In this document: positions 3 to 43,954 of the stretch, in pieces
Layout of the letters: each line of letters opens with the position of its first letter
Position numbering within the stretch: position 1 is the first letter of the stretch
Source: Planctomycetota bacterium
GTDB taxonomy: Bacteria > Planctomycetota > Brocadiia > Brocadiales > Scalinduaceae
Direction: 5' to 3'
DNA length: 51,694 nt
Assembly (NCBI GenBank): GCA_022570935.1
Contig: JACZYU010000002.1
Span: forward strand, 1-51,694
Notes under the pieces: model-generated
Databases searched by the model: none
What the model was told of the DNA's origin: nothing
Seen by the model: the letters and a program-made list of their open reading frames with translations, nothing else
Made by a program: the position numbers and the translations under genes

Positions 3-932
3 GCATCCAACATCAGCCGGGACAGAAGGGAGAGGCTCCAGGCCAGGTTAAATGATCACCCCATCCTGTTTATAGAGTGTGTGAACAACGATGAGGAAAT
101 CCTCAGTGCAAGCATACTCAGAAAGATTGATCTAGCCGAATTTGGACATCTAACCAGGAAAAAAGCAATTAAGGGTTTCAGGGAAAGGATATCCTATTAT
201 CAATCTATTGAGGAACCCCTGGAAAGTGAAAGAAATTACATCAGGCTCGATTCCCTCCACAACAGGGTTATGAAAGAAGAGATCTCCGACAGTATTCCCT
301 ACTACGAACAGATCAGGGACTTTCTGGTCACAAATACTGTAAAAAACCTATACCTTATTCGGCATGGTGAAACATACTATAACAAGGAAGACCGCATCGG
401 TGGAGACTCGGATTTGACCGAAAAAGGCCGGGCACAGGCCAGGACACTCGCTGATTATTTTAAAAAGAAAAGAATCCCTTTGATATTCACCAGTCAGAAA
501 AAACGGACTCAGCAAACCGCGTCACCTATTAAAGAAACCCAGGAAGATTGCACCATCATACCACTGGCAGAGTTTGATGAGATCGACAGCGGAATCTGTG
601 AATGTATGAGTTATAAGAAAATAAGAGCACAGATGCCGCAAGTATACGCTGAAAGGAAAAAGGACAAGTATAATTATGTCTATCCGGAGGGAGAAGGATA
701 TGCAACTATGCAGGAGCGTATAGTCCGTGGTATCAAAAAAGCCCTGTACCTGAGCAATCCCTCGGACAATATTGTGATTGTTGGCCACAGGGCTGTAAAC
801 CGTATGATCCTTTCACACTTTATGTTTCGCAGAGAGGAGGACGTTCCCTTTATCTACATTCCACAGGATAAGTTTTACTACATTTCTACCACGCAAAATA
901 AAAAACATTTTCAATTAAAAGAGTTCAAGTAG
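3..932 (+). CDS. 6-phosphofructo-2-kinase / fructose-2,6-bisphosphatase-like protein (5' truncated by window edge)
   Basis: The reading frame is open from base 3 to a TAG at 932, so the gene starts upstream of the window. About 309 residues are visible. The first ~115 residues match the end of the kinase half of eukaryotic-type PFK-2 enzymes (NISRDRRERLQARL, then FIEC, then an ERISYY..EPLE..RNYI stretch). The rest is a histidine phosphatase domain. It has the LIRHGET motif (phospho-acceptor His near visible residue 121), the RIGGDSDLTEKG signature typical of FBPase-2, a glutamate in EFDEIDSGICE, and a second catalytic His in VGHRAVNR near residue 262. A GTG at 81 would give a shorter protein but would cut the conserved kinase part. 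By family it would make and/or degrade fructose-2,6-bisphosphate in the cytosol. Kinase activity cannot be judged because the P-loop lies outside the window. Glycolytic genes follow 6 kb downstream. Confidence 0.85.
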   Translation, partial: ASNISRDRRERLQARLNDHPILFIECVNNDEEILSASILRKIDLAEFGHLTRKKAIKGFRERISYYQSIEEPLESERNYIRLDSLHNRVMKEEISDSIPYYEQIRDFLVTNTVKNLYLIRHGETYYNKEDRIGGDSDLTEKGRAQARTLADYFKKKRIPLIFTSQKKRTQQTASPIKETQEDCTIIPLAEFDEIDSGICECMSYKKIRAQMPQVYAERKKDKYNYVYPEGEGYATMQERIVRGIKKALYLSNPSDNIVIVGHRAVNRMILSHFMFRREEDVPFIYIPQDKFYYISTTQNKKHFQLKEFK

Positions 933-946
933 TTTTTTCCACTCTA

Positions 947-2095
947 TTACCGTTTTAGAAGGTAATAGAGCTTACCATATGTATTTAAATTCCCCGCATT
1001 ATACATAGCCTCATCACCTATTCCAAAAAACACATCTGCCCTGGCGGGCGTTTTAATAGCGCTCCCGGTATCTTGATCCAAAACAAAGAATGATTTCTCA
1101 ACATTCCATTCTTCCTGAGTCCGATTGGCATCTCCATCCTTTCTTGCTCCAATAACGGCGAAGGCCAACCCGCCCGGAGGAAAAACTCTCTTATCAGTTG
1201 CTATACTTCGCATTGAGGTAACAGGCACACCAATAGAACCGTGGGGAACCGAATAAGATACTTTTTCAAAGAAGATATAACGATCGTTCTGCCTGAGATA
1301 ATAATCCAACTCGTCTGGATGCTGGTCAAAATATTTTATCAACACTGAAAGGGTTAATTCTTCTTCGGAAATCTTGCCGTCCATAACTAATAACCGGCCA
1401 ATACTTGTATATGAATGTCCTGAGTCGCCGCCATATCCGACATAAATCTTCTCACCAGACGGAAGTCTGATCTGACCGGAACCCTGAACGTGGATGAGAT
1501 AGGCTTCCAGTTTTGATTTGAAGTATGCGATTTCATTGCCACTTAGCAGATTACGCTCCTCAATTTCCCGCCGGGTATAATAAGGTTTCCTGAAATCAGC
1601 AGGTTTTCTGTAAAGTGGATAACGAAATATTTCTGTTGGTATTAAACTCCCATCGTAAATGGGAGTCCCGTAACCGGTAAAATGAACTTTTCCCTCATAC
1701 CTTCTCCCAACAGCTTGAAATATCCTGAAGTTTTTAGAGATGAATTCGTTCAGCTCCTGAGAATTTTTACATCGAAGATAACCATCCCGGAAATATTCCA
1801 GGGTTTCTGCTTGCTTCTCAGGAGAAAAACCTAGTGAATTAAAAGCATTCGGGTAAGACTTGATTTTTTTGAAATATACCATACTGTTGCTTATAGACTG
1901 CAATAAAGGTTCTTTGTCATAATCATCTCTAAAATCAGGAAAAAGATTTGGATCTGTAATCTCTGACAGGCCGAGTCCCGGTTCTGTCGGCATCAGAAGT
2001 GGCTTCTTCACTGGAGTAGAACAACCTGCCTGCAAAATCATAAATAAAAAAGCAACTGCCAGCAAACGTCTAAGTATATTATTTCTTGATTTCAT
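947..2095 (-). CDS. mltA: Membrane-bound lytic murein transglycosylase A (lipoprotein)
   Basis: The protein has 382 residues, the usual MltA size. The N-terminus is a lipoprotein signal peptide: basic MKSRNNILRR, a hydrophobic core, then LQAGC as lipobox, so the mature protein is probably anchored by Cys25 to the outer membrane. The MltA barrel contains HVQGSGQIRLPSG and VGYGGDSGHSYTSIG. The C-terminus is a 3D domain with conserved aspartates (LDQDTGSAI ... PARADVFFG, residues ~340-358), where the catalytic Asp of the family lies. It would cleave the glycan strands of peptidoglycan to 1,6-anhydromuropeptides. A clear AAGGAG precedes the ATG by about 10 bases. It is transcribed convergently with the bisphosphatase gene (14 bp gap) and divergently from the TPR gene. 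Confidence 0.93.
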   Translation of the reverse strand: MKSRNNILRRLLAVAFLFMILQAGCSTPVKKPLLMPTEPGLGLSEITDPNLFPDFRDDYDKEPLLQSISNSMVYFKKIKSYPNAFNSLGFSPEKQAETLEYFRDGYLRCKNSQELNEFISKNFRIFQAVGRRYEGKVHFTGYGTPIYDGSLIPTEIFRYPLYRKPADFRKPYYTRREIEERNLLSGNEIAYFKSKLEAYLIHVQGSGQIRLPSGEKIYVGYGGDSGHSYTSIGRLLVMDGKISEEELTLSVLIKYFDQHPDELDYYLRQNDRYIFFEKVSYSVPHGSIGVPVTSMRSIATDKRVFPPGGLAFAVIGARKDGDANRTQEEWNVEKSFFVLDQDTGSAIKTPARADVFFGIGDEAMYNAGNLNTYGKLYYLLKR

Positions 2096-2231
2096 AAAAC
2101 TATCGCTCCTTTTCTCTGAAAATTGCCTACTATATGATTACCAATTCTTCTTTGACTGAATTAGTTTGACATTGGACAATCTGGTTTTGTTTAATTATTA
2201 TAGTAACATATCACGCAACATCAGTAAAACA

Positions 2232-3044
2232 ATGAGGAAAATTCTTATTCTAACATTATTAATACTTTTATTTGCTCACCCATCTGCCCGGGCCAGAAAG
2301 AATATGAAAATACGTACCGTGCCGGCTCGTACAGATTCCGGACAGACCCGGACAGACAACGTCATACCGGAAGAGACAGCAATCAGTGATTTTGATTATG
2401 AGGCGCTGGCTCTTCTCTCAGTAGAGTTAGATACAGATGAAAATCCTGATTTAGTTATATCCCTGCTCAAACCTTATAAAAACGATGAGAATAATAAAAG
2501 CTTTCTCTTTTATAGCAATTTAGGACTGGCCTATAAGAATACAGGAAGATTTAAAGAGGCTATTGCCGCATATGTTCGTGCCCTGAAATTAGAGCCAAAT
2601 GAACCTGCAGCTCAATACTATTTAGGAATTGCATATTACAAGAATAACGAATTACCCAGGGCATTAAGATATTTTCTAAAAAGCTCTGAGCAAAAACCCG
2701 ACCACCCCGGTGTAAAGAAATGGATTGATAAACTGACAAAGGAATTAGACATATGCAAAGTCCCCGATATAAGTAATATGAAGATGGTTTTTGACAAAAA
2801 TATAAATGTTAACAGAGAAGAGCCGGACAAAGAAACAAGACTGAGAATATACTTCACACAAGATGGGGGTCGAATTCAGGTTTTATCAGTTAATGATAAA
2901 ATATATTCATACGGTATCGATAGTGATACCAAGAAGCCGGTAGATTATATAATAATTGATACTGATGGTGATGGGAAGTTTGAAAAAGTAATAAATTCAA
3001 AAGGCAAATTTGGAGTCCCAACCTGGGCATACAATCCGGATTAG
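2232..3044 (+). CDS. Exported TPR-repeat protein
   Basis: The ATG at 2232 is preferred because it places a signal peptide at the N-terminus (MRKILILTLLILLFAHPSARA). A TTG at 2166 in the same frame would bury it. The product is about 270 residues. Two tetratricopeptide repeats are visible in the middle (FLFYSNLGLAYKNTGRFKEA, then AAQYYLGIAYYKNNELPRAL). The C-terminal ~90 residues read like a small beta-rich region with an acidic DTDGDGKFE stretch that could bind calcium. The function is not recognised; TPRs point to a protein-protein scaffold in the periplasm. It is divergent from mltA, and the ~135 bp between them must hold both promoters. Confidence 0.75.
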   Translation: MRKILILTLLILLFAHPSARARKNMKIRTVPARTDSGQTRTDNVIPEETAISDFDYEALALLSVELDTDENPDLVISLLKPYKNDENNKSFLFYSNLGLAYKNTGRFKEAIAAYVRALKLEPNEPAAQYYLGIAYYKNNELPRALRYFLKSSEQKPDHPGVKKWIDKLTKELDICKVPDISNMKMVFDKNINVNREEPDKETRLRIYFTQDGGRIQVLSVNDKIYSYGIDSDTKKPVDYIIIDTDGDGKFEKVINSKGKFGVPTWAYNPD

Positions 3045-3126
3045 AGGTAAAGCTGACTAAGTTTGTAATTTGTCATTCGTAAATCCCAAATCGTCCATTT
3101 TCTTTCCTTTTGTGCTCTTGCGCTTG

Positions 3127-3150
3127 TCCTCGGCGCCTTTTGTCCGGGGA
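3127..3150. repeat. Dispersed short hairpin repeat, copy 1
   Basis: The unit is TCCTCGG, then about 10 T-rich bases, then CCGGGGA. It forms a 7-bp stem with one G-T pair. Further copies lie at 33757-33780, 35605-35629 and 46214-46237. The reverse orientation occurs as a tandem array inside the phosphofructokinase gene (10629-10700). Other copies are intergenic. Confidence 0.8.
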
Positions 3151-3231
3151 GCTTCGCGTAAACAATCTATTTGCTTTTCTCTTTTAGTGTCAATTCGTGA
3201 AATTCGTGTCATGAAATTCGTGTCTTTTGTC

Positions 3232-3371
3232 TTGCAAAACACCCCCCACTCTTTTATAATAACGATCACTTGGCAGTAGTTGCAATTCACTTTTACCACA
3301 TTCTAAATATCTTCAAAAAGATCGTTTTACTTGTTTATACGAGTAAGATTTTTCGCATACATTTATAATCA
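3232..3371 (+). repeat. Dispersed ~140-bp structured element, copy A
   Basis: The sequence from TTGCAAAACACCCCCCACTC to CATACATTTATAATC recurs at 46257-46404 with a few differences. It also recurs, reversed and split, at 27040-27358. It contains ATCTT-CAAA-AAGAT, and a TTACTTG ... CGAGTAA stem whose arms vary with retained pairing between copies. Like copy B it follows a short hairpin repeat. The next gene downstream is the sce7726-family gene. The region 3045-3646 contains no convincing coding sequence. Confidence 0.7.
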
Positions 3372-3646
3372 CGGGCGGTCTTGTAGTTACTATTAATTAG
3401 CGAAACTAATTATGTCAATCGGGCAGGCCTGACCCTCTTGTTTTTTTCACCTTTTTCTCCAGAACTCCTTTTCCAAAATACACCATTGAAGTAATTGCGT
3501 CTCTGCTCAGGTATTCCTATGGCAAACAGGCAACCCGCAACTCGGTTTTTCCTTGATTTCAGTATTTACTAAAGTATCATACCACTAGCAACTTTACGAT
3601 CTACCAAATTGATATACCATCAGATGATGGATATGTTTTTCATAAA

Positions 3647-4270
3647 ATGGTTTCTACAAACGATAAGATCATACGTGTAGCTCTCCGAAATGTTTTAGAT
3701 AGGGATTTGGGAGGATATTGCTCAGAAAGTGGACTCCCTGCAAAAATATTTGAGGAACTTGGTGTGCAACACGGTGCAGCAAGGATAGATATTGCTGTTA
3801 TTAATGGTCTTATGCATGGATATGAAATAAAAAGTGATTCCGATACACTTGAACGGTTACCAAAGCAGATGAAGGAATTCAGTGCTGTCTTTGATAAATT
3901 GACTTTGGTTGTAGGAAAGCGTCATTTATATGATGCGATAAATATCGTTCCTGACTGGTGGGGTATTATTGTTGCAAAAATTGATGCGAACAATGAAATA
4001 TTTTTTCAAACCATTCGTGAAGCTGAGGATAATCAAAATCAGGTTGGAGTTTCCATAGCGCGATTGCTGTGGAAAGAAGAAGCGCTACAAATTTTAGAAG
4101 GACGAAATAAGGCAAGAGGGGTGCGCTCTAGATCGCGTGAATTCATATACCAGAGACTAGCTAATGTGTTAGACTTAGATACCCTTAAAGAAAAAGTAAG
4201 AGATGCATTGCTGGTTTCTAGGGAAGATTGGCGATCTGATGTACCGTTACTGTCAAGTGGTGGTTTATAA
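3647..4270 (+). CDS. sce7726-family protein, predicted PD-(D/E)XK nuclease-like
   Basis: The protein has 207 residues and resembles the sce7726 family of hypothetical proteins. Visible motifs are the N-terminal IRVALRNVL, then ARIDIAVINGLMHGYEIKSDSDTLERL in two parts: D in RIDIAV and E-x-K in GYEIKSD. That is the layout of the PD-(D/E)XK nuclease core. Members of this family often sit beside beta-family proteins, as here. The gene ends inside the 3' end of the convergent beta-protein gene (53 bp overlap). Its true activity is unknown; a nuclease role is inferred from the motif and a defence role from context. No strong ribosome binding site precedes the ATG, so the start is moderately sure. 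Confidence 0.7.
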   Translation: MVSTNDKIIRVALRNVLDRDLGGYCSESGLPAKIFEELGVQHGAARIDIAVINGLMHGYEIKSDSDTLERLPKQMKEFSAVFDKLTLVVGKRHLYDAINIVPDWWGIIVAKIDANNEIFFQTIREAEDNQNQVGVSIARLLWKEEALQILEGRNKARGVRSRSREFIYQRLANVLDLDTLKEKVRDALLVSREDWRSDVPLLSSGGL

Positions 4271-5300
4271 ATGCCCTAAGCCACATTTCAGTATTGCCCG
4301 TACCTTTTACTTCTGGATTTTTTATATACGTATTGAAGTGTTTTGCTTTTTCAGCAGTAAATTTATCACCGCTACTAAATTTTTCTCCATAAAATCTCGC
4401 ATCTTTTACTAATAAAGCTGCACTAGCTAAATATATTCCAAATTGTTTTACCTTTCCCTTAAGAATGAGCCAGTCATTTTCAAGTGTATATTTGATGCTA
4501 GCGGTAGCATGATAAAACTGCAGTGCTTCATTATAGATCGGGCTTCTTACCGCATAATCTGCAAAAGTTGGATCCCTTTTTGTTTGTTTATTTCTCATGC
4601 CTAACCAACTAATCCATTCAATTCTAGGAATAAGATTTTCCTCATCGAACTTACATTTAGATAGATCTTCTGGAAAAGAACCGCTAGCAAAAATGAAGGT
4701 TCGCCACTTCAATAAATTGGGAATTCTCTGACTCAAATTTAGATATTTAGTGCATTTATTTCCATTCTCTTCTGTCTCTTTAATGTCTACCAACAAATCA
4801 ATATTTTTCTCCCCTAATCCACTTGATGAAAGAAGGTTGGCAATATCTTGATTCAGCTTGATTAAATCAGAAAAGTCAGAACATATTAATCGTAAACATA
4901 TTCCGCTTCTGGTTTCTTGCGCTAATGAATAAGCAGCTTTTTTAATTTCTTGATCATCGTTTAAGTATATAGCAGGAATAAAAGTGCCTCCAAGTTTGTG
5001 ACCTTCACGCAAAACAATACTAAGACTTTCCACTTTGAGCGGAGTGGTGAACAATAGGCTAACGTCAACAAAAATTGGAGTACGCCCCCAGACTTCTATC
5101 AATTTCTCTGGTATTTGTAACATTTGTTTCTCAGCTCTTGCAACAATATCTTCAAACTGTTCGTGGAGTTTATATTTGGGCATTACGAATTGAATTAGAG
5201 GGGTAATATGTTTTTTGTGCTCCTCCGCCAATGCCTTTAGCGCACCCTGTTCAGAACGTTTCCACTTTAATATTGGTACATAATGCCTTGAGTCAAACAT
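4218..5300 (-). CDS. Beta-family protein (phage-type beta protein family)
   Basis: The product has about 360 residues starting at MFDSRHYVPILKWKRSE, the hallmark opening of the beta protein family (named after a phage protein). The ATG at 5300 overlaps the preceding gene's stop region (TAATATG), so the two are translationally coupled; an upstream in-frame start at 5351 would lie inside the previous gene. No catalytic motif is obvious. Conserved features include PLIQFVMP near the start, IFVDVSLL, and a C-terminal WLRAFINHHLTVTVHQIANLP. It is the last gene of a three-gene operon with HigB-type toxin and HTH-ImmA genes. The biochemical function of the family is not known to me. Confidence 0.75.
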   Translation of the reverse strand: MFDSRHYVPILKWKRSEQGALKALAEEHKKHITPLIQFVMPKYKLHEQFEDIVARAEKQMLQIPEKLIEVWGRTPIFVDVSLLFTTPLKVESLSIVLREGHKLGGTFIPAIYLNDDQEIKKAAYSLAQETRSGICLRLICSDFSDLIKLNQDIANLLSSSGLGEKNIDLLVDIKETEENGNKCTKYLNLSQRIPNLLKWRTFIFASGSFPEDLSKCKFDEENLIPRIEWISWLGMRNKQTKRDPTFADYAVRSPIYNEALQFYHATASIKYTLENDWLILKGKVKQFGIYLASAALLVKDARFYGEKFSSGDKFTAEKAKHFNTYIKNPEVKGTGNTEMWLRAFINHHLTVTVHQIANLP

Positions 5301-5301
5301 A

Positions 5302-6516
5302 TTATTTTTTCCACTTTTCATTAGGAAAGTACTTTCTAACTTTTGCTTCATTCACAATTTTATTTAAGTATACGTACTTGTTGCCTTTATGTCTGATTTG
5401 ACCAGCAATAACAGCTACGTGCACTCCTAATTCCCGGGCCAGGCTATTTGCCGCCATAGAAGAAGGAATAAGTCTGGCTGGACTGACCTCCCATTTTGCT
5501 TTTGGCAATAAGGCTTCTTCTGCTAATGCATCAGCTTCTCGTTCCTTCTCGTCTAAATCAATTGTTTTTATTCCTTCAATTTCATCGTAAAAAAGACTGA
5601 TACCACTATCATAATGCAGAGCTATATGGGCCAATTCATGCATTAATGTAAACCAGAAATTGTCTAACCGATCATATCTAAGAGTTAATCCGATAGCTGG
5701 ATTATCTTTGATAATTAGAATGGCTGCACCATCTAGGTAAGTTTTAGAAAAATGAGGCTCAATTACTAATACAATTCCATGTTTTATTAGATACTCTTGA
5801 GCCAATATAGGACTATTGTCTTCCGCACTTAGCTTTGCTAGTTCTTGCATAAATTTAAGATTAATACTACCACATTTACATTTCTTTGATGTTTTTACCT
5901 TCTGAGCCTTCTTATATACACAAGCTGCCCAGGCGGCTAATGCATGCTTGTCTGTACGTGGCGAAGATCTGTAATTAGACTTGCGCGTCATTCCAACAAT
6001 TTCCGCAGGAGAACCAATTGACGAAAAGAAATTTTTTAGTAGTTCAAATTTGCTATATTTCATTAATGAAGCCTTGCCAAAATAACCCCGTTCCTTCATT
6101 TCTGCCACGAGACGATTATCCCAATTCTCGTATTCGGAATCTTCGCCTAAGTCTGACTTTCTTATAAGTACTTTGGCAGGGATTCCGAGGCCCGCTTCCA
6201 GAGCTCTCACCATATCGAGAGTTAGTTGACGTTTGCATGAAAGAATCTCTGATACTCTACTTCTGTTTCCAATGTAAGGAATCAAGTCGGCCGGTTTAAG
6301 ACCAGCTTGCTCCATTCTGAATTTGATCGCATCGACAGGATCAGGAAGCGTTTCCGGAAATACTCTCGCTTCGTAATCTTGGATAAGAGTACTAAGGAGA
6401 TTAAGTTGTTCACCTTCCTCTGAGTCAGGATCTGGGTCACGGTTCATTAGCTTCTCAACTAATTTGAGGGCTTCTTCGTAGTCTTTTTCAGTTTTTACGA
6501 CTTTAATCTTGCTCAT
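5302..6516 (-). CDS. HigA-type HTH protein fused to ImmA/IrrE metallopeptidase domain
   Basis: The protein has about 404 residues. Residues ~1-100 resemble the long HigA antitoxin N-terminus (SEEGEQLNLLSTLI, LPDPVDAIKFRMEQAGL, then the helix-turn-helix IPYIGNRSRVSEILSCKR). The C-terminal half is an ImmA/IrrE domain with the zinc motif HELAH near residue 293, followed by DEKEREADALAEEALLP, which supplies the third ligand region. The centre has a CKCGS cysteine cluster. ImmA-type proteases cleave repressors or antitoxins in other systems, so this protein may both repress the operon and process a partner. The ATG at 6516 lies 8 bp after the toxin stop; an earlier in-frame start at 6540 overlaps the toxin gene. 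It is co-transcribed with the toxin and the beta protein. Confidence 0.85.
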   Translation of the reverse strand: MSKIKVVKTEKDYEEALKLVEKLMNRDPDPDSEEGEQLNLLSTLIQDYEARVFPETLPDPVDAIKFRMEQAGLKPADLIPYIGNRSRVSEILSCKRQLTLDMVRALEAGLGIPAKVLIRKSDLGEDSEYENWDNRLVAEMKERGYFGKASLMKYSKFELLKNFFSSIGSPAEIVGMTRKSNYRSSPRTDKHALAAWAACVYKKAQKVKTSKKCKCGSINLKFMQELAKLSAEDNSPILAQEYLIKHGIVLVIEPHFSKTYLDGAAILIIKDNPAIGLTLRYDRLDNFWFTLMHELAHIALHYDSGISLFYDEIEGIKTIDLDEKEREADALAEEALLPKAKWEVSPARLIPSSMAANSLARELGVHVAVIAGQIRHKGNKYVYLNKIVNEAKVRKYFPNEKWKK

Positions 6517-6524
6517 GTTTTTAT

Positions 6525-6812
6525 CTAACCTATTTTCCAATTATCATATTCTTTGTGTGTCCCGATCTTCTTTATCAGCACTATTCCATTTTTATAACTG
6601 ACCTGTACTAACAACCTATACTTATTCCTGCAAAGATCGAAAATTATGTGCTGATCCTTAACGAGACTTGCCTTTGGGTACCGTTTTTTAAGATCGTGTG
6701 GGGTGCTCCATTGGGCTTCCTCGACTTCCGCTTCCCACGATTCAATTTGTGATCGAGCATCGGCATGTTTTTCTTTGAAGTCGTACAATTTTTCTTTGTC
6801 TAATAATTTCAT
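6525..6812 (-). CDS. higB: HigB-family toxin (mRNA interferase type)
   Basis: The protein has 95 residues, the usual size of the HigB family. Family motifs are STPHDLKKRYPKASLV, IFDLCRNKYRLLVQVSYKNG and the C-terminal KKIGTHKEYDNWK. These proteins are RelE-fold ribonucleases that cut mRNA on the ribosome. It is the first gene of the operon, directly upstream of the HTH-ImmA gene as in HigBA loci, where toxin precedes antitoxin. Activity is inferred from the family. Confidence 0.85.
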   Translation of the reverse strand: MKLLDKEKLYDFKEKHADARSQIESWEAEVEEAQWSTPHDLKKRYPKASLVKDQHIIFDLCRNKYRLLVQVSYKNGIVLIKKIGTHKEYDNWKIG

Positions 6813-6858
6813 ATCTTGTCGTAGGGCGCACTGCCTCTGTTTTTGTTCCCATTCTGGA

Positions 6859-6887
6859 AATATATATCATACATTCGAAAATGTCAA
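6859..6887 (-). promoter_or_regulatory. Predicted sigma-70 promoter of the higB operon
   Basis: On the minus strand there is TTGACA (6887-6882), a 17-base spacer, then TATATT (6864-6859). The gene starts 47 bases downstream. The HTH protein of the operon is the likely regulator. Confidence 0.55.
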
Positions 6888-6891
6888 GTAA

Positions 6892-6910
6892 AAAATATAG
6901 GGTCAGGCCT
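6892..6910. repeat. Half copy of the 38-bp palindrome found at 45309-45346
   Basis: AAAATATAGGGTCAGGCCT matches one arm and the centre of the perfect palindrome upstream of the DUF3800 gene. The sequence diverges after GGCCTG. A related piece (GGCAGGCCTGACCCT) is at 3422-3436. No protein is associated with it here. Confidence 0.6.
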
Positions 6911-7030
6911 GCCCATTTGACAACTAAGGAAAACAATTGCACAAGAGAACAAGGTCACCACTTGACAATCAATCCAATTCACTCCTAATATAATTCAATC
7001 CTTGTTTATCCTGTTAATTCGCGTCAGTTG

Positions 7031-7085
7031 CCTGTCGCCTGAGGGCGACCCTGTGGGCAGTTTCAATATCCGCACCTGGCGGGAG
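7031..7085. repeat. ~55-bp dispersed repeat, copy 1, in a 519-bp non-coding gap
   Basis: The stretch from CCTGTCGCCTGAGGGCGACC to TGGCGGGAGG recurs at 14645-14699 (about 85-90 percent identical by eye). It contains the hairpin GTCGCC-TGA-GGGCGAC. The rest of 6813-7331 holds the higB promoter and AT-rich sequence in which I see no gene. Confidence 0.65.
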
Positions 7086-7331
7086 GCGGACGTAACCGCT
7101 TGTCTGAAAATGTATAAATATTAGACATTTGATTAGGTTTTAATGTAGACGGTTCATATTATTTTTGTATAATAATCAGTTTTATAATACTCATAAGATA
7201 TATTATCATAAATACTTAAGCGTAGGAGACTTTTAACCAGTATACTATCCGGATGTATTTAAGGCAATGGCATGAATTTTGACTAATAATTGAAAATACG
7301 CACATTTTAGTAGGCAATAAATTAATTAATA

Positions 7332-17959: not shown

Positions 17960-20749
17960 CTAAAGTTTAAGAGTCCTGGCACAACGAAAACCCATGCTGA
18001 AGAACCTGATACACGGTCCGAAGAGGTGGCGATACGCGCACCGGCAGAAGTAACTAATGCAGTCCCACGAGCCGCCGCGCAAAACAAAAGTATCTTTGTC
18101 CTTGTCATAGCGGCTACTCGTCCACTCCCACACATTACCACTCAGGTCTGAAATTCCTTCCTGTGTGTTTCCCTCCCTGAATACACCTACAGGTGAAGTC
18201 TTATTGATTTCAATTTCACCATTATTGCACTTGTTCTTATCCCATTCATTACTCCAGGGATATTCCCTTCTTTCATGACCGGATGCCGCTGCTTCCCATT
18301 CGCTTTCATCGAGGAGCCTGTATTCATATTCGTCTTTCGCCTCAGCGCTCAGCCATCTTGTAAACGCATACGCCTCATACCATGAGACTCCAACAACAGG
18401 GGCATTCGGACATTTCCACTTGCGGTCATTCCAATATTCCGGTAGTTCTGATTTATTTTCATAGAGCCACTTCTTTCCCTCCTCGCTCCAGTACTCTCCA
18501 TTTTTGCATCCACCGGCCTTAATAAACTCTCCGAACCAACTGTTTGTAACAGGGAACTTTCCTATCTCAAATGGCTTGATATCGGCTTTACCGGTACTCA
18601 ACGTATAAGCTCCTCCTGCAACCTTTATAAATTCCTTTAGGTTCCTTGTGTCACCAAGCCAGCCAAGGATTTCTCCTACCGCAACTCTATCTTTTACCGG
18701 AACATCTTCATCGATAACTTTTCTCATCTCTCTTATTAGATTGTCGCATAAACCTTCGTCTATATTATCAATGCTTGTGTCTAGCGCACATTCTCCTGCA
18801 AGGATAAGGTTTTGAAAAGCGTCCTGGTCTTTTTCGAAAACATCCTTTATAAAATTACTGGCGGCCTTTCTTTTAAGGGATGTGACTGTCAGCAGTACAA
18901 CCTCTTTCCACTCAGGTTTAAAAAGATTATCTCCTAATTCTTCAATAATATCGTCACTTAAGTCTGTCACGTTTCTTGCGGCAAGGTATTCCTTAAATGT
19001 TAAATGAATAAAACCGTATGTCCCGGGTGTAACCTCTTGCAGAATGCCACTTCTCTCTTTCATTATTAGTATGAAATCTCCTGCCTGTTCCTTTGAAAGG
19101 AGTAAATCTTTGTTTCTTAAATCAAATTTCTTTGTAAGCTCTTCTTTCAGTGTCTCGTAATCTATATCAGGCTGGGCTTTTACGTGCATATCAAAGGCAA
19201 TTGGCCCCAGGTAATAAACTATAAAATCCTCTGTAATATTTTTTTTACCAAGCTTAAATCCTCGTTTTTCAGATTCATATAGACTTCTCAGGTTTTCCCA
19301 GGATCCTGATAGCATCCTTAAGCATTTTGCGTAGAGGTCAGCTCTATCTTTGGGTAATTCACCTCCCTCGTGTTCGATCAGCGCAAGTATTGTCAGCATT
19401 AATGGATTGGTTGCTATATTGAAGATGTTTCTATCGTTTTTAACAACTGACATCATTTTTTTTAAGTTTCCCCTGGCTTCGGTTTCAGCTGTTTCGACTC
19501 GTTTATTTATTTCTCTTTCATAGCACAAATACCATTTAGAGAAAAAGACCTCTATCTCGTCAATATCAAAGGGGTGTATTATATAGAGGGAGAAATCAGT
19601 ATCCTTTATTTTTTCGAACCTGCTGGTCATGGTATAACTCGCGGTCCTACAAGTCACTAAAAACTTATTGTCAGAGAAATCATCATACCCTATAAAATTG
19701 CTTATATCGGAAACCATTTTTTTTCTTGCTGTCTCATTCGTTACTTCGTCAAGGCCGTCAAGAAGGACTAACGCGCTATTGCTTCTTAATGCTTTTTCAA
19801 AAAGAGGTGCTAAATTTGGCAGTCCCTGACTTTTAAAGTATAAAGGGATAAATTCATTAAGGGACAGGTTTGTTAAACTATCTTTTTTGCATTCTTCCGC
19901 GTAAGCGGCTATAGGAAATAGTATGGGCAGTAACTCTCTATTCTCAGAAATTTCCAATCTTTCATTCTCTTTTCCATCAATAAACGCCAAGGCTATATAT
20001 TTTAAAAGTGTGCTCTTGCCAGAACCAGGGTCTCCGGTTATTACTGAGTATTTAGAATCCAATATATTGGATATTTTTACAGAGTCTTCTTTGAGGCGTT
20101 CAATTAACTCTGCCTTTTCCACGAGTTCCTTTTTCTTTAAATATTCCATTTTGTCCCTGAAAATTTCTTTTGTTAATGTCAGCTTGGTATAAATATCCTT
20201 TAACGAAAAAGAGATCAATTTGCCTTCACTTAATCCTTTAAAACTCAGATGGCTATATTTTTCCTTAATATAGTTAAAGTATTTTCTCTTTAGAAAATCC
20301 AAATCAGGCTTTTCTTCTGTAAGCCGATTCAAAATCCTCTTCATCAATTGAAGATTCATGAATGGGATCAGTTTTTCAGAGGATTCAGCTGTGAGCGTAA
20401 AACCTTCTAAAAAGTAAGTTGTGGCAGTTTTTAAGTTGAAGCCCCTAATAGTATTTATATCGATGCCCGCGTTAGCAAGGACGCCTTCAATATGCCTGGT
20501 GTCTTCTGATAGTGAAGGTTCTTTAACAATTTCAACTAACAAAGATTTTATTTCTTCACAATCCAGCAATTTCTGAAGATAGTCTTTGTCAACATCCTCA
20601 TCATTAAAGCTGTTTGAAAAAAATCTTATACCTTCAGCAAAAGCGCTATCTAATGATGCTTTAATACCGTCTGTGTCTTTCTTGCCTGTAGAAGTGAGGA
20701 ATTTTGTTGCTAAATTCGCGGATAAGGCGACTATAAACCCTTCAATCAT
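17960..20749 (-). CDS. NACHT NTPase with C-terminal FGE-sulfatase/C-type-lectin-fold domain; DGR target
   Basis: The protein has 929 residues. Residues ~1-225 are helical with no effector domain I recognise. A NACHT domain follows: Walker A GDPGSGKST (239-247), Walker B LVLLDGLDEV (about 327-336), then a helical region with FIHLTFKEYLAAR. From about residue 700 comes a formylglycine-generating-enzyme-like domain (FEIGKFPVTNSWFGEFIKAG, PVVGVSWYEAYAFTRWLS, YRLLDESEWEAAA, ISDLSGNVWEWTSSRY). It ends in RGGSW...CRCAYR...GFRCA (891-925), the classic position of DGR-diversified residues. By analogy with NLR-like STAND proteins, the C-terminal domain should be the ligand sensor and the NACHT module the switch. 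What the N-terminus does is unknown. No transmembrane segment or signal peptide is evident. The start is ATG at 20749. Confidence 0.93.
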   Translation of the reverse strand: MIEGFIVALSANLATKFLTSTGKKDTDGIKASLDSAFAEGIRFFSNSFNDEDVDKDYLQKLLDCEEIKSLLVEIVKEPSLSEDTRHIEGVLANAGIDINTIRGFNLKTATTYFLEGFTLTAESSEKLIPFMNLQLMKRILNRLTEEKPDLDFLKRKYFNYIKEKYSHLSFKGLSEGKLISFSLKDIYTKLTLTKEIFRDKMEYLKKKELVEKAELIERLKEDSVKISNILDSKYSVITGDPGSGKSTLLKYIALAFIDGKENERLEISENRELLPILFPIAAYAEECKKDSLTNLSLNEFIPLYFKSQGLPNLAPLFEKALRSNSALVLLDGLDEVTNETARKKMVSDISNFIGYDDFSDNKFLVTCRTASYTMTSRFEKIKDTDFSLYIIHPFDIDEIEVFFSKWYLCYEREINKRVETAETEARGNLKKMMSVVKNDRNIFNIATNPLMLTILALIEHEGGELPKDRADLYAKCLRMLSGSWENLRSLYESEKRGFKLGKKNITEDFIVYYLGPIAFDMHVKAQPDIDYETLKEELTKKFDLRNKDLLLSKEQAGDFILIMKERSGILQEVTPGTYGFIHLTFKEYLAARNVTDLSDDIIEELGDNLFKPEWKEVVLLTVTSLKRKAASNFIKDVFEKDQDAFQNLILAGECALDTSIDNIDEGLCDNLIREMRKVIDEDVPVKDRVAVGEILGWLGDTRNLKEFIKVAGGAYTLSTGKADIKPFEIGKFPVTNSWFGEFIKAGGCKNGEYWSEEGKKWLYENKSELPEYWNDRKWKCPNAPVVGVSWYEAYAFTRWLSAEAKDEYEYRLLDESEWEAAASGHERREYPWSNEWDKNKCNNGEIEINKTSPVGVFREGNTQEGISDLSGNVWEWTSSRYDKDKDTFVLRGGSWDCISYFCRCAYRHLFGPCIRFFSMGFRCARTLKL
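17971..18088 (-). repeat. DGR variable repeat (VR)
   Basis: These 118 bp align without gaps to 20953-21070. On the coding strand 22 positions differ. Twenty-one are at template adenines; the other is a C-to-G change at 17975. The last variable codon is followed by 17 identical bases (GGTTTTCGTTGTGCCAG), the likely initiation-of-mutagenic-homing site. Fourteen residues are changed in the diversified window of the target protein. Confidence 0.95.
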
Positions 20750-20929
20750 TTAGTACTCCATTATGAAATTGTAGTTTGCTGCCCGGGGGTTTTCAGCTCG
20801 CTTACTAACCCCTGAGTAGCAGTTTAATAATTTGTTCGTATACCATCAGGTATACGACACGGGAGCCGGGTCTGGACTCTATTATTGCACACTCCCTTTC
20901 TCCGTGAAGAAAAGGACTCCGGCTTTCGC

Positions 20930-20946
20930 GCGGGTGATTATCCCGC
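20930..20946. promoter_or_regulatory. Short hairpin flanking the template repeat
   Basis: GCGGG-TGATTAT-CCCGC lies 7 bp beyond the 3' side of the template repeat (minus-strand sense). It could structure the template RNA or end it. This is an inference only. Confidence 0.35.
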
Positions 20947-20952
20947 ATGATA

Positions 20953-21070
20953 GAGTGCTGGCACAACGAAAACCTATGTTGTTGTTCCTGATATTCGGTT
21001 CGTTGTTGTTGCGATACGCGCACCGGCAGTTGTTACTATTGTTGTTCCACGAGCCGCCGCGCAAAACAAA
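20953..21070 (-). ncRNA. DGR template repeat (TR) within a non-coding template RNA
   Basis: On the minus strand this is rich in AAC codons and has 34 adenines. Its conceptual translation reads [20 protein letters not shown] and onward, a normal sign of a DGR template. It starts 37 bp after the reverse transcriptase stop codon and lies 203 bp before the target gene. The open frame across it is a by-product of similarity to the target, so it is not annotated as a gene. The template RNA is copied by the reverse transcriptase with adenine-specific errors and the cDNA replaces the variable repeat. Confidence 0.95.
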
Positions 21071-21107
21071 TTCGACCCTGCCCCTTTACAACATCATAGG
21101 TTTAAAA

Positions 21108-22169
21108 TCAATTTAAGGTTTTGGTAAATACGGTGTTCCGGAATATCTCTTTTCTCAGTTGATAGCTGTCCGCATGTTTAACATGTCCAATCCAGCTCTG
21201 TATAGAATTGTTAATTTCAGGTATTCTGATATTTCCGTTTTTATACTCTTCTGTCATATCCCTTAATTTCCTTCTATATCTCTTTACAATACTTTTTCTG
21301 ACACGTACGTAATCGGGATATATTCTGTATCCGAGGAAATCTACACCATCTGTTGTCCTGAAAACCCTGCTTTTGTTTTCATGTAAACGCAATCTTAATG
21401 TCATAAGGTATTTTTTGATTTCACATTTGATCTCGTTTAACCATACCTTGGAATTTCCAAAAATAACAAAATCATCGCAGTAACGTATGTAAAACCTGGC
21501 AGTTAATTCTTCTTTGATAAAATGATCAAAGTCGTTCAGATACAAGTTGGCAAAAAACTGACTTGTAAGATTGCCCATTGGTAGGCCTTTTTTCCGGTAA
21601 AGGGGAGTAAAAAGGTCATCACCTTCAAAATACGTTAACTCTCTACCGCTTTGCCTTGAATCGATTATTTGCTTTACAAGCCACATGGTGTTTTTACACT
21701 TTATCTTTTTTTGGACTTTATTCAATAGAATTTCCTGATCAACATTTTCAAAATATTTTCTTACATCACACTTGAGTACGTATTTATTCTTTTTTTGAAA
21801 TTCCTTATAGCGTTGAACAGCTTTATGTGTGCCTCTGCCTTTTAAACATGCGTATGTATCATAGATAAATGATTTTCCTATAGTTGGTTCGATAATGTTT
21901 ATGAGCGTGTGGTGTATGACCCTGTCGAAGTATGGCGCTGCGCTTATAATTCGTTTCTTAGGGTCATAGATATGGAAATCACAATAGGCGCCCGGTACAT
22001 AGGTTTTATTACTCAGGACTTCGATTATCTTCAGGAGATTACGCTCAAGATTGTACTCGAACAATGCTGTAGACGCCTTATATCTTTTCCCCCGTCTTGC
22101 CTTCTTTGACGCTTTCAGTATATTTTCGAAAGATATGATTCTCTCAAAAAGATTATTTTTCCTTTTCAT
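21108..22169 (-). CDS. DGR reverse transcriptase
   Basis: The protein has 353 residues, the usual DGR RT size, without maturase or endonuclease domains. Motifs: KCDVRKYFENVD (catalytic Asp near 135), GLPMGNLTSQFFANLYLNDFDHF (195 onward; the GxxxSQ form is typical of DGR enzymes as opposed to QGxxxSP of group II introns), and YIRYCDDFVIFG, with YCDD at 230-233 in place of YADD. It overlaps the end of avd by 17 bp, so translation is coupled. It would copy the template RNA located immediately downstream, with errors at adenines. A retron RT is unlikely, because there is no msr/msd-like inverted structure and the TR/VR pair is explicit. Confidence 0.95.
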   Translation of the reverse strand: MKRKNNLFERIISFENILKASKKARRGKRYKASTALFEYNLERNLLKIIEVLSNKTYVPGAYCDFHIYDPKKRIISAAPYFDRVIHHTLINIIEPTIGKSFIYDTYACLKGRGTHKAVQRYKEFQKKNKYVLKCDVRKYFENVDQEILLNKVQKKIKCKNTMWLVKQIIDSRQSGRELTYFEGDDLFTPLYRKKGLPMGNLTSQFFANLYLNDFDHFIKEELTARFYIRYCDDFVIFGNSKVWLNEIKCEIKKYLMTLRLRLHENKSRVFRTTDGVDFLGYRIYPDYVRVRKSIVKRYRRKLRDMTEEYKNGNIRIPEINNSIQSWIGHVKHADSYQLRKEIFRNTVFTKTLN

Positions 22170-22518
22170 CCTTTGATATCTGGTATTTCAACCAACCTCC
22201 AATTTCAGAGCCTATTTCATTGAGGCATTTTGAGACATACTCATATTTCTTTATACTGAGGTATTTCAGGTCATTAGTAAGCCGGATAAGATATCTGAGT
22301 TTTTCAATCTTGAGATTTGCTTTTTCCAGGGATGGAGCCTTGTCTCTTGTGTATATTGCCTGGATGATTAATTCCATAACGTCCAGAAGATTGGTTTCAA
22401 CCCGGTCCCCAAGAAGATACCTCTGGCTCTTTGGGAACTTTTCAAGCTGAGGTATTATCCAGAGGATCAGGTTGTAGGTTTTAGTCAGTGCGCTTACTTC
22501 CTTTTGTTCATTTGCCAT
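22153..22518 (-). CDS. avd: DGR accessory protein Avd (four-helix bundle)
   Basis: The protein has 121 residues, all helical in character. Family features: LTKTYNLILWIIPQLEKFPKSQRYLLGDRVE, then LLDVMELIIQAIYTRDKA, then LEKANLKIEKLRYLIRLTNDLKYLS and GSEIGGWLK. Avd forms a basic pentameric barrel that binds the RT and the template RNA. It is the first gene of the cassette avd-RT-TR-target, all on the minus strand. Its start lies only 2 bp from the start of an opposite small reading frame, so its promoter must lie within that frame. Confidence 0.93.
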   Translation of the reverse strand: MANEQKEVSALTKTYNLILWIIPQLEKFPKSQRYLLGDRVETNLLDVMELIIQAIYTRDKAPSLEKANLKIEKLRYLIRLTNDLKYLSIKKYEYVSKCLNEIGSEIGGWLKYQISKDEKEK

Positions 22519-30849: not shown

Positions 30850-32388
30850 TTACAATGCCACTGTTTTCCTTATATCATTGATAATAAATTCGTCAGCAGC
30901 ATACGGCCCCCAGGTACCTGCCCGATAAAGGTGAATATGAGGCAATTCTTCACTGGCCCATCCTTCAAGTATGCCATTCACTAACTTCCATGCTACTTCT
31001 ACTTCATCCTGCCGGATAAAGAGTGTACTGTCACCTAATATAGCGTCTAAAATCAGGCGTTCGTATGCTCCCGGAGGCTCTACATCAAAAACGTCGCTGT
31101 AGCTGAACTCCATGTCTTTAGGTTCTAAGATCATTTTCGGGCCCGGAACTTTCATGCCTATGGACAGGCGTATACCTTCATTCGGTTGCACCCGCAATGA
31201 GAGCATATTAGGTTTCATATGATCCTGCTCTTCACCATCGTTATTTTTTATATGACTGAAAAGCGCAAGAGGCGGCTGCCGGAATTCAATATTAACTTCA
31301 GTAAGTCGTTCTGTCAGCGCCTTTCCCGTACGAAGATAAAACGGTACACCGGCCCAGCGCCAGTTGTCCACATGTAATCTCAGCGCTACAAATGTCTCGG
31401 TCACGGAATTGGACTTTACACCTGCCTCTCTTAAATAATCCGGAATCAATTTCCCATCTATAGTTCCTGCCGCATATTGTCCACGTACGGAACACTCGTT
31501 AACTTTACTCTTTTCAATAGGAGGAATAGCGCTCAACACCTTTACCTTTTCATCGCGTACAGCATCAGGCGCAAAAGAGGCAGGCGGCTCCATAGCAACA
31601 AGCGCCAACAATTGCAGCATGTGATTTTGTACCATATCGCGGAGCGCACCAGAATTGTCATAATATCCGCCGCGTCCCTCCACGCATACGGATTCTGCCA
31701 CGGTGATATGAACATGACTCACGTATCGGCGATTCCAGAGCGGTTCAAATATACTATTGCCGAAACGGAACGCCATTATATTTTGAACGGTTTCCTTACC
31801 CAGATAATGATCGATACGATAAATCTGACTCTCATCTAATATGGATGATAAGCTTTTATTTAAATCGTAAGCGGTTTCAAGGTCACGTCCAAAAGGCTTC
31901 TCAACGATAACTCTTGTCCAGCGATTTTTATCATTCGGATCGGAGATGTATCCGGCCTGACCAAGCATTGCAACAATTCCGGAAAAAACGTTGGGAGGTG
32001 TAGATAGGTAAAACAGGCGATTAGCCTTGGCAGAATCTATTCCGCGTTCTTCACCAAGCTTATCCATCAATTTTTTTAAATCATGAAAACTTTTACTGCT
32101 ATCATAGTTTCCGGTTTGGTAATAGCAACATGAACTAAATACTTTTAATTCCCTGGACCCTGCCTCCGGCTTAGATCTGGCAAATTCTACTAAGGCATCT
32201 TCAATTTCAACACGAAATTGTTCATGAGATTTTTCACGTCTGGCAAATCCGACAATCGTGATCTTTTCTGCAAGTAGACCATCTTTGACCAACTGAAACA
32301 AGGCCGGTATCAATTTGCGTTTTGTCAAATCACCAGACGCACCGAAAATAACTATGGTGGCAGGTTCGGCTTTCTGTCGAGTAGGCAT
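30850..32388 (-). CDS. zwf: Glucose-6-phosphate 1-dehydrogenase (left copy)
   Basis: The protein has 512 residues. The N-terminal dinucleotide-binding motif is IVIFGASGDLTKRKLIPAL, and the active-site motif is YRIDHYLGKETVQN, with EKPFGRDLETA before it. It oxidises glucose 6-phosphate with NADP(+) or NAD(+). It is about 94 percent identical by eye to the copy at 35720-37252. It faces away from gnd, with an intron remnant between. The N-terminal few residues (MPTRQK) differ from the other copy, so the duplication begins at about the second to fourth codon. Confidence 0.96.
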   Translation of the reverse strand: MPTRQKAEPATIVIFGASGDLTKRKLIPALFQLVKDGLLAEKITIVGFARREKSHEQFRVEIEDALVEFARSKPEAGSRELKVFSSCCYYQTGNYDSSKSFHDLKKLMDKLGEERGIDSAKANRLFYLSTPPNVFSGIVAMLGQAGYISDPNDKNRWTRVIVEKPFGRDLETAYDLNKSLSSILDESQIYRIDHYLGKETVQNIMAFRFGNSIFEPLWNRRYVSHVHITVAESVCVEGRGGYYDNSGALRDMVQNHMLQLLALVAMEPPASFAPDAVRDEKVKVLSAIPPIEKSKVNECSVRGQYAAGTIDGKLIPDYLREAGVKSNSVTETFVALRLHVDNWRWAGVPFYLRTGKALTERLTEVNIEFRQPPLALFSHIKNNDGEEQDHMKPNMLSLRVQPNEGIRLSIGMKVPGPKMILEPKDMEFSYSDVFDVEPPGAYERLILDAILGDSTLFIRQDEVEVAWKLVNGILEGWASEELPHIHLYRAGTWGPYAADEFIINDIRKTVAL

Positions 32389-35719: not shown

Positions 35720-37252
35720 ATGAAGAAAGCCGAGCCTGTCACCATAGTTATTTTTGGTGCGTCTGGTGATTTGACAAAACGCAAATTAATACCGGCTTTG
35801 TTTCAGTTGGTCAAAGATGGTCTACTTGCAGAAAAGATCACGATTGTCGGATTTGCCAGACGTGAAAAATCTCATGAACAATTTCGTGTTGAAATTGAAG
35901 ATGCCTTAGTGGAATTTGCCCGATCTAAGCCTGAGGCAGGATCAAGCGAATTAAAAGTCTTTAGTTCATGTTGCTATTACCAAACCGGAAACTATGATAG
36001 TAGCGAAAGCTTTAAAGATTTAGGAAAATTACTAGAAAAGCTTGATGAAGAACGTGGAATGGATTCTGCCAAGGCCAACCGCTTGTTCTACCTCTCTACA
36101 CCTCCCAACGTTTTTTCCGGAATAGTTGCAATGCTTGGCCAGACCGGACATATCTCCGATCCGAATGATAAAGATCACTGGACAAGAGTCATAGTTGAGA
36201 AGCCTTTTGGACGAGACCTTGAAACCGCTTGCGATTTAAATAAAAGCTTATCATCTATTTTAGATGAGAGCCAGATTTATCGTATCGATCATTATCTGGG
36301 TAAGGAAACCGTTCAAAATATAATGGCGTTCCGCTTCGGCAACAGCATATTTGAACCGCTCTGGAACCGGCGCTACGTGAGTCATGTTCATATCACAGTG
36401 GCAGAATCCGTATGCGTGGAGGGCCGCGGTGGCTATTATGACAATTCGGGAGCGCTCCGCGATATGGTACAAAATCACATGTTGCAATTGTTGGCGCTTA
36501 TTGCCATGGAGCCGCCTGCATCATTTGCGCCTGATGCTGTTCGAGATGAGAAAGTAAAGTTATTAAGTGCAATTCCTCCCATTAAATCGAATGAGGTTAA
36601 TGAGTATTCCGTACGTGGACAATATGCGGCAGGAACTATAGATGGAAAATTAATTCCGGATTATTTAAGAGAGGCTGGTGTAAAGTCCAATTCTGTGACC
36701 GAGACCTTTGTAGCGCTGAGATTACATGTGGACAACTGGCGCTGGGCGGGTGTACCGTTTTATCTTCGTACCGGAAAGGCACTGACAGAACGCCTTACTG
36801 AAGTAAATATTGAATTTCGGCAGCCGCCTCTTGCTCTTTTCAGTCATATAAAAGATGATGGGGAGACAGAGGAACAGAGTCGTATGAAACCTAATATGCT
36901 CTCATTGCGGGTACAACCGAATGAAGGTATACGCCTGTCCATAGGCATGAAAGTTCCGGGCCCGAAAATGATTTTAGAACCTAAAGATATGGAATTCAGC
37001 TACAGCAACGTTTTTGATGTAGAGCCGCCAGGGGCATATGAGCGCTTGATTTTAGATGCTATATTAGGTGACAGCACTCTCTTTATCAGGCAGGATGAAG
37101 TCGAAGTAGCATGGACGTTAATGAATGGCATACTTAAAGGATGGGCCAGTGAAGAATTGCCTCATATTCACCTTTATCGGGCCGGCACCTGGGGGCCGTA
37201 TGCTGCTGACGAATTTATTGCCAATGATATAAGAAAAACAGGGGCGTTGTAA
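35720..37252 (+). CDS. zwf: Glucose-6-phosphate 1-dehydrogenase (right copy)
   Basis: The protein has 510 residues with the same motifs as the left copy (FGASGDLTKRKLIPAL; RIDHYLGKETVQN). The start is MKKAEPVTIVIFG with GGGGCAAGAA before the ATG. Differences from the left copy cluster in a few surface segments (for example SSESFKDLGKLLEKLDEERG versus SSKSFHDLKKLMDKLGEERG). Both copies look functional. This one is downstream of gnd and co-directional, so it is the likelier partner in an operon. Confidence 0.96.
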   Translation: MKKAEPVTIVIFGASGDLTKRKLIPALFQLVKDGLLAEKITIVGFARREKSHEQFRVEIEDALVEFARSKPEAGSSELKVFSSCCYYQTGNYDSSESFKDLGKLLEKLDEERGMDSAKANRLFYLSTPPNVFSGIVAMLGQTGHISDPNDKDHWTRVIVEKPFGRDLETACDLNKSLSSILDESQIYRIDHYLGKETVQNIMAFRFGNSIFEPLWNRRYVSHVHITVAESVCVEGRGGYYDNSGALRDMVQNHMLQLLALIAMEPPASFAPDAVRDEKVKLLSAIPPIKSNEVNEYSVRGQYAAGTIDGKLIPDYLREAGVKSNSVTETFVALRLHVDNWRWAGVPFYLRTGKALTERLTEVNIEFRQPPLALFSHIKDDGETEEQSRMKPNMLSLRVQPNEGIRLSIGMKVPGPKMILEPKDMEFSYSNVFDVEPPGAYERLILDAILGDSTLFIRQDEVEVAWTLMNGILKGWASEELPHIHLYRAGTWGPYAADEFIANDIRKTGAL

Positions 37253-39636: not shown

Positions 39637-40658
39637 TATCTCTATCCCGGAGGATATGGGTTTAAACTATTGTACTTTTGTCTGTCTCAATCTAATTTCC
39701 ACAGTCCTACTTGTCTCAAACTATGTGCCAACGTTATTTTATCCGCCAAAACTATAAGAATATCTACGTCCTAACATACTGATGGTACGGGGCTTGTAAA
39801 AATAAAAAACATACCTTAGGGAGGGTGGTGGTGTTCCAATCTGACGTATGCATGGTGGGGGAATTTCTCCCAGTCAATTCGGAGAATTGTTTCTAAAATT
39901 TGCGGTATTTACAGGAATATAAACAAGTTATGAAGGGGGGGGCAGAAAACCCCTCACCTGGGGTGATTTCACCCCACATTTTAGAAGAAAATATCCACAG
40001 GTATTCTTTAAAGGAATCTTTTATGAACACCGGCTAGCGGCGTGCTGCTTGGCGGGCTTGCCCGACGATTCGTGTGGCGGGTGCGGTGAATTATCTATTT
40101 GCTTTTACCTTTTAGTGCTAATCCGGTTTACTCCAGCTATGCTGGATTGTTCTATTCAATTGAAACGTATTGAAATTGGTAATTGTTTATTCGCCAATTA
40201 GCTGCGCATTGGCGTGTGAAAGTGATGGATCACGCGAAACATTGCGGTATTGGTAAGTGTGTTAATGCGAAGAAGGATGGTTCCTTCCGACAGCGAAGAT
40301 GTGAGCCCTAATAAAGTGAACCTGTTTCGGCCTCGTTACACTAAACTGCCGTTGGCTATCCTGCCGGATATGGTGAAGCCTGCTACAGACATGGAAGAAA
40401 TAAACGAATGCACATGTCAGGACGGTCGGGGTGATTGGGGAGAGCGCGCATCGAAAGAACAATCATGGTATCTGGGATATCCTTCCCGCGTCATTTTCTC
40501 GGAGGTCGAGAGATTGAAAAGGTGTTGGGGAATCAATAACTTGATTATCTGCGGAGAAGGAAGTCGGAGCGGCCAATAAGAGCGAAGACGCAGGGTAATG
40601 CCTGTCAAGCAAAGTGGCCGTACCGTTATTATGTTTACAGAATAGAAAGGAGTTCCGC

Positions 40659-41594: not shown

Positions 41595-41595
41595 T

Positions 41596-43457: not shown

Positions 43458-43954
43458 ATGTCGTAATGGCTCGCTATATGGGCAGACGCATAACTGACTG
43501 GCTGGAAGCCATCGTCGAAGATCAACTGAAGCTAAATATAAATCGGAAAAAGACAAAGGTAGTTAAAATGAAGCGGCAAGGGGAAGCTCTTGATTTTCTT
43601 GGATTTACCATGCGATACGATAAGGATTTGCATGGTAGAAACCGAACGTATCTGAATACCTTCCCGTCTATAAAGGCAATAGCCAAACATCGGGAGAAGT
43701 TGCGAACTGTTACAAATAGCGGTTATAAGCGCTCGATGTCTGATACTATTGCCAAGGTTAATGAAATTAACCGTGGTTGGAAGAATTATTTTTGCAAAGG
43801 ATATCCAAGGAAATGCTTCAGAGATATAAACTGGTTTGTACTAGAACGTTTCAAATCATTTATAAATCACCGGAGCCAACGACGATGCCGACCTCTCAGA
43901 GATGGAGAAAGCCTCTATGCAGGATTGCGTAGATTTGGCTATGTACCTCTTTGA
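43458..43954 (+). CDS. Outer group II intron RT/maturase, 3' exon part
   Basis: This reads VVMARYMGRRITDWLEAIVE, then LKLNINRKKTKVVKM, LDFLGFTMRYDKDLHGRNRTYLN and the maturase part EINRGWKNYFCKGYPRKCF, ending LRRFGYVPL. It has no independent start signal; it depends on removal of the inner intron. Domain V of the outer intron follows 50 bp after the stop. Confidence 0.85.

Follow-up and report, generated by a model that had tools for sequence, protein, structure and literature searches.

Do four adjacent genes for a HigB-like protein, a helix-turn-helix (HTH)-ImmA fusion, a beta-family protein and, convergent with these, a protein of the sce7726 family constitute one system, and what would such a system do? 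The question is raised by a locus in a 51,694-nucleotide stretch of DNA (the whole of which we refer to as the window; contig JACZYU010000002.1, assembly GCA_022570935.1) from a Planctomycetota bacterium of the Scalinduaceae, where a first-pass annotation had proposed a coherent four-gene candidate defence module. We report that the locus represents a variant of the Escherichia coli system PD-λ-2 with an evolutionarily entangled predicted nuclease. This is the new element; the association of beta with sce7726 as such is already known, together with a phenotype, from gop-β-cII of satellite P4, which defends E. coli against λ and P1 (PMC9122126). Judged from these homologies the module is very probably anti-phage, and on balance we favour the reading that it is an abortive-infection cassette of the PD-λ-2 type with an added nuclease. 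PD-λ-2 was found in E. coli by functional selection and is a three-gene system composed of a HigB-like A, an Xre-peptidase B and a P4-antitoxin-like C (PMC9519451). The statement in the annotation that sce7726 and beta-family proteins have no known function has to be revised, since HigB-HTH-ImmA-beta corresponds to PD-λ-2 and beta together with cII, which is assigned to the 'sce7726 family' in RefSeq and is convergent with beta, is part of gop-β-cII.

All four reading frames named in the annotation are open in the window, with the 53-bp convergent overlap as described (Table 1). As read from the layout, the HigB, HTH-ImmA and beta genes are co-directional behind a single predicted promoter, and the convergent sce7726 gene has its 3' end entangled with that of beta. 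The promoter-led operon of the annotation is borne out by a TTGACA-17-TATATT element (positions 6887-6859, minus strand) that matches the consensus at 11 of 12 positions. The internal starts listed for the HTH-ImmA and beta genes are probably the true ones, because the N-terminal methionine of the HTH-ImmA homologues aligns at residue 9 and the betas of relatives open with MFD..HYVP; the beta start would then lie one base past the HTH-ImmA stop.

Table 1 Features of the locus, in window coordinates
Feature	Position	Strand	Remark
sce7726-family protein (P4 cII homologue; predicted PD-(D/E)XK nuclease)	3647-4270	+	convergent with operon
beta-family protein (PD-λ-2 component C; P4 beta homologue; predicted TIM barrel)	4218-5351	-	likely start ATG 5300
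HTH + ImmA/IrrE (M78) zinc-protease fusion (PD-λ-2 component B)	5302-6540	-	likely start ATG 6516
HigB-like protein, 95 aa (PD-λ-2 component A)	6525-6812	-	
sce7726/beta tail-to-tail coding overlap, 53 bp	4218-4270		
promoter + palindromic operator (putative)	6845-6887	-	
accessory block, no counterpart beside flanking genes in same-genus genomes	3042-7102		blastn

The HigB-like protein matches PF09907 with 93 bits (cut-off 27) and the PADLOC model PD-Lambda-2_A with 129.9 bits over residues 1-93 of 95. Its motif NKYRL...GTHKEYD is retained in most rows of a 28-row alignment, and L069 and L071, two E. coli-like relatives, have lost the C-terminal motif. The HTH-ImmA protein matches PD-Lambda-2_B with 475 bits (profile positions 1-399 of 402) and Peptidase_M78 (PF06114) with 36 bits (cut-off 22), and its HTH part stays below the Pfam threshold (HTH_3, 13.9 versus 23 bits). 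The HExxH residues and the downstream acidic ligand (H301, E302, H305 and E333) are invariant among 31 homologues; by this motif and PF06114 the protein is an ImmA/IrrE (M78) metallopeptidase. Genes for HTH-ImmA and HigB were also seen without beta (L065-L067 and L038; L037 is cut by the end of its record). The window carries a second, HigA-antitoxin-like HTH-ImmA gene (46888-47979, plus strand; HTH_3 28 bits, Peptidase_M78 37 bits), a further relative of which is present in the same genome (G000:C185). Near it are a DUF3800 gene (45418-46143, plus strand) and a DUF4238 gene (49144-50388, plus strand); by eye, a DUF3800-like gene also adjoins the bare pairs of beta and sce7726 found in L176 and L183.

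The beta protein matches PF14350 (187 bits, cut-off 27) and PD-Lambda-2_C (130.8 bits, residues 22-374). Its AlphaFold2 model (pLDDT 92.9) aligns with many TIM-barrel proteins at Z about 12-13, none of them specific, and a TIM barrel is the predicted fold. Residues E34, D96, R154, D189, D265 and H365 are invariant and may form a pocket. As to sce7725, it was rejected as a beta homologue (hhalign probability 0.3 %), although the C-terminal HH stretch aligns.

The fourth protein belongs to the sce7726 family (NCBIfam NF033832, 161 bits, cut-off 70) and matches the PADLOC model 'cll' with 88 bits. Residues E37, D48, E60 and K62, i.e. the motif D48...E60-x-K62 plus E37, are invariant in 40 homologues, which argues that sce7726 itself is under selection. 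For its predicted model (pLDDT 92) the best structural neighbours in VIA-align were the MmcB-like 3dnx (Z 11.7) and the restriction enzyme PaqCI (Z 8.8), and Foldseek gave no strong match with the model, nothing below E 3e-3; the fold call is based on the VIA-align Z together with the motif. Catalytic motif and predicted fold thus agree, and sce7726 is predicted to be a member of the PD-(D/E)XK nuclease superfamily, as the annotation had it. No paper on the function of sce7726 was found among the open-licence papers searched. Elsewhere, sce7726 genes are present in same-strand operons with sce7725 and RES (L063, L064) and as plasmid copies without an annotated beta alongside. The former (L063 1382-4233 and L064 3208-6298) consist of co-directional genes for sce7726, an sce7725-like protein and a third protein, which in L063 is a RES-domain protein (PF08808, 65 bits), and represent another toxin-bearing setting of sce7726. 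On the Pseudomonas aeruginosa plasmid pF007 (L280 3453-7060) sce7726 is convergent with a Tn3 transposase gene, with a 4-bp overlap, and beta has seemingly been replaced or lost.

How often are the four genes found together? Among 392 genomes sampled from the phylum of the window, beta was above the cut-off in six and sce7726 in eight; a convergent sce7726 gene adjoined beta in all six and PD-λ-2 B adjoined it in four of the six. For scans of a public genome collection broad beta or sce7726 alignments were too diverse and narrower ones were used, so that this survey is biased towards betas with the motif HYVP[CIV]L[RK]W. Here HigB-B-beta-sce7726 was present in the same order and orientation at 17 of the 34 beta loci, in Patescibacteria groups, Omnitrophota, Chloroflexota, Thermodesulfobacteriota, Bacteroidota, Stahlbacteria and metagenome-assembled genomes (MAGs) of Proteobacteria. 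Adding the window and its genus-mate G010, the exact four-gene order is known from 19 loci, which span at least eight phyla. The annotation had named rare co-occurrence in other genomes as what would count against its module; this was not seen, and the recurrent order together with the PD-λ-2 matches substantiates the module as a coherent candidate. The betas of the four-gene loci form one clade (20 rows including one cut locus; support 100/98), and the E. coli-type betas of L069 and L071 fall outside it.

The recurrence of beta with sce7726, also claimed in the annotation, was found from both sides. Where enough DNA beyond beta was available, sce7726 was present in 33/33 genome loci (degenerate in L190) and on 12/12 viral contigs, 45/45 in all, and searches anchored on sce7726 in viral contigs found a convergent beta in 38 of 38 distinct testable loci. 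Beta without sce7726 was seen in L071 and two E. coli loci and, given the other settings of sce7726, the pairing rule applies to the sampled lineage and not to the whole superfamily. The slot upstream of beta, moreover, varies: it holds HigB and HTH-ImmA, DUF6932 and HTH-ImmA, ImmA and a PIN-like protein (L060), Gop (P4) or nothing recognisable, the last mostly in temperate phages of Bacilli and enterobacteria. The L060 locus (46-3367; ImmA-peptidase, PIN-like protein, beta and an overlapping convergent sce7726) is a possible further toxin swap, with PIN below the Pfam cut-off.

Where the -10 box of the window promoter ends, the palindrome TTCCAGAATGGGAAC (6859-6845) begins; its pattern, TTCC-N5-GGGAAC, is unique in the window (0.18 expected). 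The strict form TTCCC-N5-GGGAA is located upstream of HigB, just past the -10 box, in 14 of the 19 four-gene loci, and degenerate forms are present in four others (the window, L162, L170 and L187); 243 kb of sequence held 15 strict copies, only one of them outside this position. In the E. coli PD-λ-2 promoters examined, palindromes of a similar kind flank both the -35 and the -10 box. We infer that the palindrome is a putative operator suited to an autorepressing HTH protein.

The tail-to-tail overlap of sce7726 and beta is close to constant. In a first set of 58 loci, 56 have the genes overlapping, by 26-122 bp, the exceptions being P4 (27-nt gap) and L190 (broken), and the overlap length is 2 mod 3 in all 56; near-copies are included (L176-L179; L057 = L180; L058 = L184). 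In a second set, anchored on sce7726, 37 of 38 pairs overlap, by 11-122 bp, and 37/37 have the phase of the first set. Other convergent reading-frame pairs in the same loci are mostly gapped (119/142); those that overlap also favour the same phase (12/20), so that phase alone says little, and constancy, register and constraint say more. As to register, the conserved W-R codons of sce7726 face the same codons of beta in 51 first-set pairs, at a distance of 36 nt from the N of NHH (an offset of 33, counted from the residue that follows, is the same register); the register holds in about 22 of the second-set pairs and is shifted in a separate phage lineage (L236, L239 and kin). As to constraint, we compared in 16 four-gene loci the identical residues with at least fourfold codons and scored the share encoded by different codons, which for beta was 41% inside the overlap versus 68% outside and for sce7726 25% versus 67%; none of about 500 same-length blocks was as low as the overlap. 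A cruder synonymous test, made earlier, had given a weak result for beta; with only degenerate residues counted, the signal was clear for both genes. The overlap is under double-coding constraint.

How might the locus work? In the scheme that we propose a complex of A and B would repress its own promoter via the palindrome, and the HigB-like A would keep the HTH-ImmA protein B harmless in healthy cells. Either beta or the loss of A-B would serve to sense infection, and freed B, possibly HigB too, would then halt growth. As partner of beta, a role suggested by the fact that this beta lineage is nearly always encoded with sce7726, the sce7726 protein would cut DNA, working with beta or restrained by it; the near-constant antisense overlap would hold the two together and may couple their expression. 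Overexpression of B alone is toxic in E. coli PD-λ-2 and the HigB-like A rescues, and C is required against λvir but not for neutralisation in what is abortive infection (PMC9519451). The roles given in the first-pass annotation, HigB as toxin and ImmA as antitoxin processor, are hence probably inverted. A scheme along those lines, with HigB the toxin, HTH-ImmA the antitoxin and HigB set free when the ImmA domain, on sensing of phage, cuts off the protein's own HTH part, would agree with the retained NKYRL...GTHKEYD motif, the invariant HExxH and the HigA-like HTH and operator; we regard it as quite improbable, given the E. coli phenotypes (PMC9519451), the loss of the HigB C-terminal motif in L069 and L071, and that no cleavage site or trigger is known.

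Some of the evidence weighs against the cassette that we favour. No defence test was found for any PD-λ-2 locus that bears sce7726; the E. coli system functions in the absence of sce7726, so that the role of the latter may be dispensable or regulatory; the bare beta-sce7726 pairs of temperate phages demonstrate that the pair exists without HigB-ImmA; and many of our loci are MAG contigs, whose taxon names may be wrong in places. One could then regard the locus as an ordinary three-gene PD-λ-2, as described by Vassallo et al. (PMC9519451), beside an independent beta-linked nuclease, with sce7726 a passenger kept only by its 3' overlap with beta. Overlap by itself can lock neighbours together, and the E. 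coli loci without sce7726 point the same way, but the nuclease residues are invariant in 40 homologues and the pair persists without HigB-ImmA in phages and without overlap in P4, and we consider a mere passenger unlikely. It is very improbable that the locus merely stabilises a mobile element, as an addiction module, and plays no part in phage defence: the operon is toxin-antitoxin-like and relatives reside on plasmids, but two homologous systems are proven anti-phage, and addiction modules have no need of the conserved nuclease-like protein that is also present. Beyond the cassette that we favour, it is quite possible, if short of probable, that beta and sce7726 form one antisense-entangled unit of a nuclease and its TIM-barrel partner to which toxin modules are joined interchangeably (HigB-ImmA, nucleotidyltransferase-ImmA, Gop and perhaps PIN). 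PD-λ-2 and gop-β-cII would then represent two branches of one modular family of defence systems, and the E. coli form of PD-λ-2 would lack the nuclease carried by relatives with this beta type. Two separately found anti-phage systems would so be linked by a shared core. The analysis also provides a fold and active-site prediction for sce7726/cII and a predicted TIM-barrel fold for beta, with no published mechanism found for either, and an example of convergent genes that stay overlapped across phyla, phages and plasmids.

In blastn comparisons with same-genus relatives, homology of the left flank stops at 3038-3045 (three relatives) and that of the right flank resumes at 7103 (two) or 7354 (one, L193). 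The block between, having no counterpart beside the flanking genes, represents an accessory insert or rearrangement block; in the relatives the flanking genes are on different contigs and the comparison gave no clean insertion site. Elsewhere in the window, a NACHT NTPase gene with a C-terminal FGE-sulfatase domain (929 aa), with reverse transcriptase and bAvd genes upstream (17960-22518, minus strand; Pfam NACHT, FGE-sulfatase, RVT_1 and bAvd), resembles a diversity-generating retroelement with a NACHT-FGE target. Near-identical glucose-6-phosphate dehydrogenase genes (30850-32388, minus strand, and 35720-37252, plus strand) flank a 6-phosphogluconate dehydrogenase gene and, with rhodanese-like genes at 29016 and 37339 that mirror each other, make up a large inverted duplication. 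Reverse-transcriptase reading frames at 40614-43954 (plus strand), among them one with the maturase domain of group II introns, probably represent one or two such introns, one of them broken.

Where does the locus stand among known systems? No paper that pairs sce7726 with PD-λ-2 was found among the open-licence papers searched. The sce7726-sce7725-RES operons (L063, L064) share the sce7726-family protein, but their genes all run in one direction, beta homology is not detectable in the partner and in L063 a RES-domain protein follows. The bare pairs of temperate phages (for example Rac-SA53, Gordonia phage Powerball and Bacilli prophages) have the convergent overlapping beta and sce7726 genes with no adjoining HigB or HTH-ImmA. 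Loci of the DUF6932-ImmA-beta-sce7726 type (for example Agrobacterium pAt2788b, L034, and Ca. Brocadia, L057) have HTH-ImmA, beta and the overlapping convergent sce7726, whereas HigB is replaced by DUF6932 with a nucleotidyltransferase-like GSF...DxD motif. With gop-β-cII the locus shares the beta family and a convergent cII (sce7726 family); it differs in having HigB and HTH-ImmA in place of gop, and in P4 the genes are separated by a 27-nt gap, with no overlap, and cII is longer (264 aa). Since the genes upstream of the window beta are HTH-ImmA and then HigB, not gop, the locus is not a member of gop-β-cII. With PD-λ-2, finally, it shares A, B and C in the same order in one operon, with full-length PADLOC matches, and an operator palindrome common to window-type and E. 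coli-type loci; two E. coli PD-λ-2-type loci that we read directly have no sce7726, and the L069 and L071 betas are a separate clade. The window locus is, accordingly, a PD-λ-2 variant that carries a predicted nuclease.

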